Below are positions 1,417-4,193 of a stretch of 29,268 nt of DNA, one piece after another (positions within the stretch are counted from its first letter, which is position 1; every line of letters starts with the position of its first letter). A program made the translations under genes and the position numbers. The stretch is taken from IMG/VR virus record IMGVR_UViG_3300025901_000008, positions 1-29,268 of that record, one strand, 5' to 3'. The DNA comes from a virus. A model generated the notes under the pieces. That model was not told the origin of the DNA. It ran no database searches and was given only the letters and a program-made list of their open reading frames with translations.

Positions 1417-1797
1417 GTGCCTAAAGCTAATGAAACTGCTCCCCAAAATCAACACACTGTCGTCGCTGCGGCGGCAGGCTGGTCTGTCGTTCAGATCTAC
1501 CTCGGCTGTCAGCTGGTGGACGGCGTATGGATCGTCGATCCGATCGAGATCGCCGAAGCCCCGGTTGTCGCGTGGCGTATTTACCCCGGTTTTAAGCAGC
1601 AGCCATCGGGCGTCTTAGCGTGGCGGCTACCGCTGGTGCCGCGGCTGGATGAGTATCATCTGGATTACCGTGGCCTCGTCACCCCTGATGGCAGGGTCGA
1701 GCATTACAACAAGATTTTTTTGAGCCGCGACGAGTGGCTGGCTCACATCTGCCTCGCCCACGCTGAACGCGCTCAAAGCTGGGAGCTCGACCGATGA
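1417..1797 (+). CDS. Hypothetical protein (126 aa)
   Basis: Family not recognised. The start is taken as GTG 1417 because AAGAAAGGAA lies at 1401-1410, six bases upstream; an in-frame ATG at 1339 lacks such a site. The protein is soluble, rich in Trp and aromatic residues in its middle (WSVVQIYLGCQL, VAWRIYPGF), with no membrane segment or clear motif. Its stop overlaps the primase-helicase start by four bases (ATGA), so the two are translationally coupled. This suggests a replication-related role, but that is only context. Confidence 0.7.
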   Translation: MPKANETAPQNQHTVVAAAAGWSVVQIYLGCQLVDGVWIVDPIEIAEAPVVAWRIYPGFKQQPSGVLAWRLPLVPRLDEYHLDYRGLVTPDGRVEHYNKIFLSRDEWLAHICLAHAERAQSWELDR

Positions 1798-3995
1798 ATG
1801 AGGCGAGCCGAGCGTTTCTGCGCGCTTATTTCGGTGATGATCTCAGCGGCGTCTATGTCTGCGACAGCAACAGCATGAATAGGCCGCGGCTGGCGGCGAC
1901 GGCGACGCTCGACCCGCAGGCTGGCTGGTATTGGTGCCCGGCGCGGCTGTCGGGACTGAATGCCCGCGGGCAGCGGGTGGCGGAGAAGGCCGTCTCGGTC
2001 CACGCTTTGGTCATCGACGATGTCGGACGTAAGGTTCACCCGGCGGAGTTCGCCTGGCTAGCGACGCCACCGCTGACGCTGCTTGAGACCTCCGAAGGCA
2101 ATGCTCAAGCGGGATACCGACTGGGCGACGGGGTGACGCCGGCAGAATGGACGGCGCTGAGAGCGCGGGTGCCGTGGGAGGTCGATGGCACCGACTGCGT
2201 GCATTGGTGGCGGCTGCCTGGCGGCATCAATCAGAAGCGCGGCGGCTTTGTGGTTGGATCGGTCATTTGGGGGGAGGGCGACCTCGGGTGGTTGCCGGAG
2301 ACGCCGTTTAGCAAGGCGGCGCGAGCTCCGCGGAGCGGAGGTGGGCCGCAGGCGGCGCCCTCGGTGGCGGCGGTCAAGGCGGTGCTGGAGGCGCTGAAGA
2401 ACCCCTGGGAAGGCGGCGAAGGCGAAGGCTTGCGCGGCTGGTGGATAGAGGTCCTGCACGCGATCAAGGGAGCGTTGCTGGAGTGGCCGGAAGACGCCTT
2501 TGAATTGGCGCTGGCGTGGTCGAAGGACGAACCTGGGTTCGAGCGGGTGTGGGAGAGCATCGAGCCGCATTCGGCCGGCTGGGGGGCGTTGGAGATTTTG
2601 GCCAAGGACAAGGCGGGACCAGACTTAGCGGCGGCGGCGTTTGATGATGATGCCACTCAGCCAGAGAAAGAGCGGACGACGATTTATGACTTCTACGCTC
2701 ACAACCCTACCGGCAAGTTTGTCTACATGCCGACCGGCGATCTGTGGCCGGCGAGCAACGTCAATTCGCGCTGTGGCCCGACTGGGATATCCGACGCAAA
2801 GGGCAAGCCGCTACCGGCTTCGGAGGTACTGAAGCGGCAGCGGTCGGTGGATCAGGTGTCGTGGCTGCCGGGACGGCCGAAGTTGGTCAAAGACGCGGTG
2901 CTGACCAAGGCGGGGATCGAAGCCGAGAAGGACAATGTGATTTTGAACCTGTACCGGCCGCCGGCGAAGTGTTCGGGGGTGGCGCAACATGCGCTGCCGT
3001 GGCGGCGGCATTTGGAGATGCTCTATCCCGAAGACGCCGAATGGATCAGCAAGTGGATGGCGCATTGCATCCAGCGGCCGTGGGAGAAGAAGAACCACGC
3101 GCTGGTGCTGGGCGGGCCGTCGGGGGCCGGCAAGGATACGATCCTAGCGCCGCTGATCCTCGGGGTGGGCGGGCAGAATTGGCAGGAGGCGACGCCGACG
3201 GCGCTGCTGGGGCGGTTCAATTCGTTCCTGCAGAGCGTCGTGCTGCGGATCTCGGAGGTGCATAACCTCGGTGAGAATATGACCCGGCGGAAGCTGTATG
3301 AGCATCTGAAGCCGATCCTCGCGGCGCCGCCGGCGACGCTGCAGATCGACACCAAGGGGGTCGAGGTTCGATCCATTTTGAACGTCGTTGGGGTGGTGAT
3401 GACGACCAACTACCGGCACGAGGGCTTCTATCTGCCGGAGGAGGACCGCCGCCACTACATGGCCTGGACCGACGTGACGGAACGCCAGGTGCGGCAGGAC
3501 AAGGGGCCGGATTACTATGCGCGGCTGCACCAGTGGATGGATGGTGACGGAGCCGGGCATGTAGTGGCCTTCCTGCGGTCGATCGATCTGAAGGGGTGGG
3601 ATGCCAAGGCGCCGCCGCCGAAGACGCGATGGTGGCATTCGGTGGTTGGAGTGTCGACGCAAGACGTCAATGATGAGGCGCTGGAGGACGCTATCGCAGC
3701 GATGGGTTCGCCTTCGGTGTTCTCCAAGGATCAGTTGATGGCGGCGGCAGAGCCGGGACTGCAGACGTGGATTGACGACCCGAAGAACACGCGAGCGTTT
3801 CCGGCCCGTTTGGATGGCCAAGGATATGAGCGCATTCTGAGCGGCGGCAGCAAGGGAAGATGGTACTTGAAGGACACGCGGAACGTGTCCTTGTATGGAA
3901 AGAAGAGCCTCTCGACATCTGACCAAGTCAATGCTTGCGAGGCTTGGGTGGTCAAAAAGAACGAAGAAATCGAAAAATCGAAAAAAGGTTTCTGA
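1794..3995 (+). CDS. Primase-helicase: RepB-like (AEP) primase domain fused to SF3 helicase
   Basis: Predicted to make primers and unwind DNA at the phage fork. The N-terminal part looks like a RepB-type archaeo-eukaryotic primase. It has a hydrophobic strand ending in the acidic pair D75-D76 (ALVIDD), then ETSEGNAQAGY at 98-108 and WRLPGGINQK at 139-148, the usual order of these motifs. The C-terminal part is a superfamily 3 / DUF5906-type helicase. Its Walker A is GGPSGAGKDT at 440-449 with K447, the B motif VVLRISE ends at E488, and motif C is MTTN with N539. Length 733 aa fits a two-domain primase-helicase. The tail is Lys-rich (KKNEEIEKSKKGF). It is the last gene of the plus-strand replication module and sits beside a large inverted repeat that may be its origin. 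Confidence 0.9.
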   Translation: MNEASRAFLRAYFGDDLSGVYVCDSNSMNRPRLAATATLDPQAGWYWCPARLSGLNARGQRVAEKAVSVHALVIDDVGRKVHPAEFAWLATPPLTLLETSEGNAQAGYRLGDGVTPAEWTALRARVPWEVDGTDCVHWWRLPGGINQKRGGFVVGSVIWGEGDLGWLPETPFSKAARAPRSGGGPQAAPSVAAVKAVLEALKNPWEGGEGEGLRGWWIEVLHAIKGALLEWPEDAFELALAWSKDEPGFERVWESIEPHSAGWGALEILAKDKAGPDLAAAAFDDDATQPEKERTTIYDFYAHNPTGKFVYMPTGDLWPASNVNSRCGPTGISDAKGKPLPASEVLKRQRSVDQVSWLPGRPKLVKDAVLTKAGIEAEKDNVILNLYRPPAKCSGVAQHALPWRRHLEMLYPEDAEWISKWMAHCIQRPWEKKNHALVLGGPSGAGKDTILAPLILGVGGQNWQEATPTALLGRFNSFLQSVVLRISEVHNLGENMTRRKLYEHLKPILAAPPATLQIDTKGVEVRSILNVVGVVMTTNYRHEGFYLPEEDRRHYMAWTDVTERQVRQDKGPDYYARLHQWMDGDGAGHVVAFLRSIDLKGWDAKAPPPKTRWWHSVVGVSTQDVNDEALEDAIAAMGSPSVFSKDQLMAAAEPGLQTWIDDPKNTRAFPARLDGQGYERILSGGSKGRWYLKDTRNVSLYGKKSLSTSDQVNACEAWVVKKNEEIEKSKKGF

Positions 3996-4015: not shown

Positions 4016-4138
4016 CCGACACTATCCGACACTATGTCTACTCGCCTAGCTCACACTCCTACATGCCCCTATAATAATAAAAAACCCAGAAAAAATTACA
4101 AATTATGGACGAGTAAACATAGTGTCGGATAGTGTCGG
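4016..4138. repeat. 29-bp inverted repeat of tandem 10-bp units around AT-rich loop; candidate replication origin
   Basis: Arms 4016-4044 and 4110-4138 are reverse complements at 28 of 29 positions. Each arm starts (outer side) with two tandem copies of CCGACACTAT, giving four copies in all. The 65-bp loop 4045-4109 is AT-rich and includes TATAAT (4070-4075) and A-runs. There is no gene in 3996-4200. The setting, directly after a RepB-like primase-helicase and between converging operons, fits an iteron-type origin or a hairpin recognised by the primase, as the ssi hairpins of RSF1010 are by RepB'. A role in ending transcription is also possible, but the loop is too long for an ordinary terminator. 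Confidence 0.6.
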
Positions 4139-4151
4139 AGCCGATAGCTGG

Positions 4152-4193
4152 AAAAATAATTATCGCCGCCTCTGCAGGTTGTAGAGGCGGCGA
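4152..4193 (-). terminator. Rho-independent terminator of the leftward operon
   Basis: An 11-bp perfect stem (TCGCCGCCTCT 4163-4173 with 4183-4193) has a 9-nt loop. Read on the minus strand it is followed at once by TAATTATTTTT (4162-4152). It lies eight bases beyond the stop of the last leftward gene. This is a textbook intrinsic terminator. Confidence 0.85.

Follow-up and report, generated by a model that had tools for sequence, protein, structure and literature searches.

In a metagenome-derived virus record of 29,268 bases, described as a soil phage and here called the window, positions 4016 to 4138 very probably form the replication origin of this phage. Judged by its layout, location and conservation, the segment would be of the type in which an initiator gene is followed by its own iterons. 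It appears to be a new case of a known origin layout whose breadth in tailed phages seems undocumented; no paper describing that breadth was found in the open-access literature. Replication origins are unknown for most uncultured phages. If the reading holds, origins could be located straight from metagenomic contigs by looking for inverted tandem 9-10-mers close behind the 3' end of an SF3/D5 helicase gene, and dozens of natural helicase-iteron pairs would be at hand for working out the recognition code.

The window encodes the tailed-phage genes for a family A DNA polymerase, a primase-helicase, a terminase, a portal, a major head protein and an endolysin-like protein, and near-identical copies of the phage (99.8%) occur in two other samples. 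The DNA polymerase ORF (21-1292, 423 amino acids) is without the N-terminal part present in the relative L010 (650 amino acids); it may have been truncated at the end of the contig or represent a shorter version. The primase-helicase gene (1794-3995, plus strand) encodes 733 amino acids with a RepB-type (AEP) primase-like N terminus, a PriCT-2-like middle part, an SF3 AAA+ helicase of type DUF5906 (amino acids 440 to 553; Pfam E = 1.6e-8) and a C-terminal domain; its PHROG match is DNA primase. The N terminus is 32% identical over 101 amino acids to the product of a separate primase gene in the relative L011 (4e-7), and the middle part is 48% identical over 111 amino acids to the N terminus of the L010 helicase. 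The C-terminal domain (amino acids about 611 to 733; 3624-3995, plus strand) carries a block conserved in the helicase clade, RKNxRxIPHRLExxGYVxVRNPDAxDGxWKIxGKRQxIYAKxxLS, and its predicted secondary structure is winged-helix-like, helix-helix-strand-strand (H655-661, H669-675, E678-682 and E690-694 in a low-confidence model). From this pattern, and by analogy with Cch2 and SaPI Rep, we propose it as the iteron-binding domain. The AlphaFold2 model of the window protein, built on a 12-sequence alignment (pLDDT 45), was not used as structure evidence. Among those ORFs near the gene that were compared with Pfam and PHROGs, DNA polymerase A and unknowns were found and no repA/repC-type match.

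The repeat consists of two 29-nt arms (4016-4044 and 4110-4138), complementary at 28 of 29 positions (97%) and separated by 65 nt. Sequence inspection and a repeat search identified a left pair of CCGACACTAT units at 4016-4025 and 4026-4035 on the plus strand and an inverted right pair of CCGACACTAT at 4119-4128 and 4129-4138 on the minus strand. The dyad is lengthened inward by GTCTACTCG at 4036-4044 and, as found by inverted-repeat search, CGAGTAAAC at 4110-4118; such inner arms are also visible in relatives. The AT-rich spacer, our proposed melting region (4045-4109), has a GC content of about 0.34-0.37, 25 points under that of the window (0.62), with 0.16 in its core (4070-4107), and harbors a TATAAT at 4070-4075. 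The earlier note had described 29-bp arms matching at 28 positions, four 10-bp units and a 65-bp AT-rich loop with TATAAT, all of which were found where it had placed them, and its picture of iteron-like units beside an AT-rich stretch holds in the window. No other inverted repeat in the window is as strong, and first-order Markov shuffling of the 29-kb sequence, repeated 200 times, never produced a perfect tandem-inverted 20-mer. Beyond the four units, no copy of CCGACACTAT exists in the window with one mismatch allowed. A possible likeness of GACACTAT to the SP6 promoter needs no special explanation, the units being lineage-specific.

The repeat is free of genes and starts 21 nt past the primase-helicase stop codon; the downstream gene block (about 4.2-6.6 kb) lies on the minus strand, so that genes converge at it. 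The lack of genes and the convergence had been pointed out before and are true of the window, but the convergence is incidental; in most relatives the downstream gene is co-directional with the helicase gene. The convergence and a strong predicted RNA hairpin would agree with a transcription terminator, or an RNA structure, where the two operons end, but this reading is extremely unlikely: most relatives show no convergence, the loop measures 65 nt instead of 3-8, neither arm is followed by a T-run, and no terminator was called at the repeat. A separate hairpin followed by TAATTATTTTT (4163-4193, minus strand), outside the proposed origin, is the probable intrinsic terminator of the minus-strand block. 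That the repeat is a small MITE-like insertion is barely conceivable. Its 123 bp with terminal inverted repeats would be a typical size for such a mobile element, but there is no target-site duplication at its ends, it is single copy in the record, its copies among 2.9 million viral contigs are confined to the same phage, and its position is fixed in relatives although the sequences differ.

Since the window helicase is of SF3 type DUF5906, unlike the D5 set described below, its own relatives matter most as a test of the origin reading. A search with the single window protein retrieved only near-identical copies, and a 9-sequence alignment had no conserved stretch; a three-sequence alignment search yielded 28 loci (L272-L299) with 34-40% identity to the window over the helicase, which were dereplicated to 18 lineages. 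Several of the relatives compared in this work are contig fragments. We defined an array as at least two head-to-tail 9-10-bp units facing two inverted units over an AT-rich spacer; the clade test came after this definition and used the same scan. The strict scan found an array just 3' of the helicase gene in 14 of 18 lineages and nowhere else in those loci. When the tandem criterion was relaxed and up to two mismatches between the arms were allowed, the count was 15 of 18; control windows (0/347), shuffles (0/360) and more distant homologs (0/48) gave no array, and three lineages of the clade were without one even then. Dropping the arm-mismatch limit gave 17/18, yet 87/347 control windows were also positive, and this version was discarded. 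These counts strongly support the origin reading of the earlier note, which was to fall if relatives with the same primase lacked the repeat; this check was run, and the repeat is present in relatives of the same helicase clade. The clade arrays start -8 to +249 nt from the helicase stop codon and have spacers of 27-138 nt, which in the 14 strict-scan lineages average 16 GC points under their locus. The unit sequence differs in most lineages and matches inside each locus.

Furthermore, the same layout exists after other helicases. In L010 and L011, whose polymerase is 53-55% identical to that of the window, an inverted repeat with arms of tandem 9-10-bp units lies just after the helicase gene, and the unit sequences, CATGGCGCA and GTTGTGTAYA, differ from that of the window. 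Scanning 1.7 Mb of loci for tandem units opposite their inverted copies returned only such sites and a few weak ones, compared with one in Markov sequence of equal length. Further terminase-linked relatives carry AAGTGACCC units (L120) or GGTGACGCT units (L131 and L140), and inspection by eye revealed TGTGGAGGGT units in L160, TGCCGTAC units after a RepA-like AAA_25 helicase in L143 and GGTGTACAG-like units after a VapE-like helicase in L123. In Cheetobro, a cultured array-bearing phage growing on M. smegmatis mc2 155, GGGGACATGT units directly follow the primase gene. A D5-helicase alignment search gave 80 loci, about half of them with an array, and clustering at 85% amino-acid identity yielded 59 lineages, the window and the first relatives included. 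An array lies within -60 to +150 of the helicase stop in 26 of these 59 lineages (starts at -41 to +144 nt, spacers mostly 51-86 nt), with four matches in the remaining 437 kb (binomial p 7e-37); the first few D5 relatives had defined the pattern, and about 20 of the 26 were found afterwards. Of the downstream windows, 29/59 had exact 7-mers occurring two or more times on both strands, versus 6/331 control windows. A word-count statistic with one mismatch gave controls as high as the test regions and was replaced by the tandem-inverted scan.

In the window's own clade, N-terminal primases are of the TOPRIM (L272, L274 and L289), Prim-Pol (L288, L295 and L298) or RepB type (L294; here the array was seen only in the unrestricted relaxed scan, with its high background), and across primase types the SF3 domain is kept together with the C-terminal block RIPHRLExxGYVxVRNPDAxDGxWKI. 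Comparison of L011 with L134 shows primases of 39% identity next to helicases of about 95% and C termini of 94%, and the iteron units are the same. L131 and L140 share both iteron pairs identically, while their protein domains are 37-71% identical (primase part 37%) and their 3' flanks have diverged. As the primase was exchanged while helicase, C-terminal domain and repeats stayed together, these sequence comparisons assign the array to the helicase and its C-terminal domain, whatever the primase type, and the helicase-plus-origin unit appears to have been exchanged independently of the primase.

This bears on the RSF1010 RepB'/ssi mechanism put forward in the earlier note. The RSF1010 oriV/ssi system has a RepB-type primase and inverted repeats near replication genes, and its ssi sites are primase-dependent. 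The window likewise has a RepB-type primase domain and an inverted repeat near a replication gene, a long stable hairpin is possible (RNA parameters, z -9.2 and -8.7), and inner arms are extended in many relatives, all in keeping with a primase domain that recognizes a single-stranded DNA hairpin and primes there. Nevertheless, we regard such a single-strand initiation site as quite unlikely: the array persists with TOPRIM or Prim-Pol primases, goes with the helicase where primase and helicase have recombined, and shows no primase dependence. Tandem units with some mismatched stems (GTTGTGTACA versus GTTGTGTATA in L011) also suit iterons better than a stem.

The position of the arrays likewise makes it very unlikely that the repeat is an operator at which dimers of a phage transcription regulator, bound to tandem units beside the replication gene, control the next transcript. 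Regulators typically bind inverted and tandem sites, and the loop has two weak promoter-like matches. However, the array stays with the helicase gene even though the genes downstream are unrelated and face either way, no regulator gene is consistently adjacent, and two D5 phages with the array, phiadh and A2, have this region annotated as origin. An operator may be an additional role, and the initiator could regulate its own gene alongside the origin function. In these Lactobacillus phages (AJ131519 and AJ251789), the depositors placed a rep_origin at the end of the D5-type primase gene; as in the window, inverted groups of about 10-11-bp units surround AT-rich DNA, whereas copies are more numerous and more loosely spaced, and helicase family and hosts are different. 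We also observed that AAACTATACACAACTATACACAACCCTTGG is identical in a metagenomic phage (L107:6977-7006) and in the right arm of phiadh (L257).

Among known systems, PICI origins lie 3' of rep and have an AT-rich region with a set of iterons on either side (PMC6092414), and pri-rep-ori replicons are known from PICI/SaPI (PMC6092414; Ubeda et al. 2007, as cited in PMC7581432). In this organization the initiator binds its iterons via the C-terminal domain, and gene and ori together drive autonomous replication, an assay carried out for EcCICFT073 in E. coli DH5alpha. The window has the same 3' location (21 nt past the stop codon of the putative initiator helicase gene), element-specific sequence, two iteron sets (2+2, inverted) and an AT-rich region in between, and its conserved C-terminal domain would, by analogy, bind the iterons. 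It differs in having only 2+2 units and a DUF5906-type SF3 helicase. Moreover, the window, part of a tailed-phage genome, encodes terminase, portal, capsid (major head protein) genes, whereas a PICI is a satellite island without virion structural genes; given its virion genes, the window phage is not a PICI, and only its origin is laid out like one. PMC6092414, in which the alpha protein of satellite phage P4 is also mentioned, states that the PICI origin organization is found in no further known bacterial replicon. In contrast, a PICI-like layout was found here in dozens of phage lineages, which bears on the source of phage-satellite replicons, as a layout described as PICI-only would be widespread in tailed phages. 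P4 alpha is a fused primase-helicase that binds short iterons; by this description the window protein would resemble it, while the P4 ori/crr layout differs.

SCCmec Cch2 binds AAGTG iterons just downstream of its own gene via its C-terminal domain; three direct repeats matter, and inverted repeats are dispensable for binding (PMC7581432). It shares with the window a D5/SF3-family helicase and short repeats just downstream of the gene, and differs in its direct repeats, which are inverted pairs in the window, and in its helicase clade. The nearest solved structures by sequence profile are those of the phage NrS-1 primase-polymerase-helicase (6k9c/6k9e, E = 4e-6), a hexameric SF3 ring with a C-terminal tail domain whose primase recognizes GTG-containing sites, according to the available text of PMC7102993 and PMC8718748. 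There, the published recognition site TTTGGTTA is a primase site, and no paired inverted iterons are described in that text. The best model for the window is an SF3 initiator that would bind iterons via its C-terminal domain, as in PICI/SaPI and Cch2.

Following this analogy, the SF3 primase-helicase, whose gene lies directly upstream, would use its C-terminal domain to bind two tandem units per side as double-stranded DNA, and the head-to-head units would place two helicase hexamers face to face over the AT-rich spacer. The hexamers would then open the spacer, each loading on a different strand, and the first primers would come from the fused primase domain. For the D5 relative L011, a model with pLDDT 80 matches hexameric and dodecameric viral D5/PrimPol structures and is consistent with ring and double-ring assembly, which for the window protein would hold by analogy. 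The GC-skew check proposed in the earlier note did not support an origin at the repeat: in the window and two relatives, the extreme of cumulative skew lies near the terminase gene. Taken more broadly, we lean toward the view that the SF3 DUF5906-type and D5 helicases of tailed phages form, with their C-terminal DNA-binding domain and head-to-head iterons, a portable cassette with a fast-diverging DNA code, recombined as a unit with interchangeable primases, and that origins laid out like those of PICIs are a general phage type and no satellite hallmark.

Several minor observations were made on units and spacers. In 19 of the 26 D5 lineages, purines and pyrimidines alternate in the spacer over an unusually long run, e.g., CACGCGCGCGCGCGCACATACGCGTG (shuffling test, p<0.05; examples 3' of the helicase stop in L176, L199, L212, L010 and L131), often accompanied by TTTTCC...GGAAAA inner arms. 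Such a run, absent from the window spacer, is a possible Z-DNA or cruciform melting element. Many iteron units across lineages contain GTG or GTGA, and the NrS-1 primase recognizes GTGA/GTGG (PMC8718748); a core shared by GTG-type units with the NrS-1 and Cch2 sites is possible. If AGTG is the same core, the window unit would run opposite to the GTGA-containing units of its relatives. Inverted TGCSGKAC units at L142:4482-4620 and L143:3777-3890 show the same layout with a non-SF3 helicase; in the respective protein, a RepB-type primase is joined to a RepA-like AAA_25 helicase whose C terminus is winged-helix-like.

Phages with a named, more distant relative of the window helicase vary: in Burkholderia phage AH2 the gene is followed by repeated inverted AGGTCCGAAT units, and in Thiohalocapsa phage LS06-2018-MD04, Vibrio phage 1.021.A and others no such units follow it. 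In some distant homologs without iterons (L326-L346), inverted pairs such as TGTGGACAATGTGGATAA lie about 1.6-2.4 kb past the helicase stop. Read on the other strand, TGTGGATAA is a DnaA box, which suggests a host DnaA-type origin in these phages instead.
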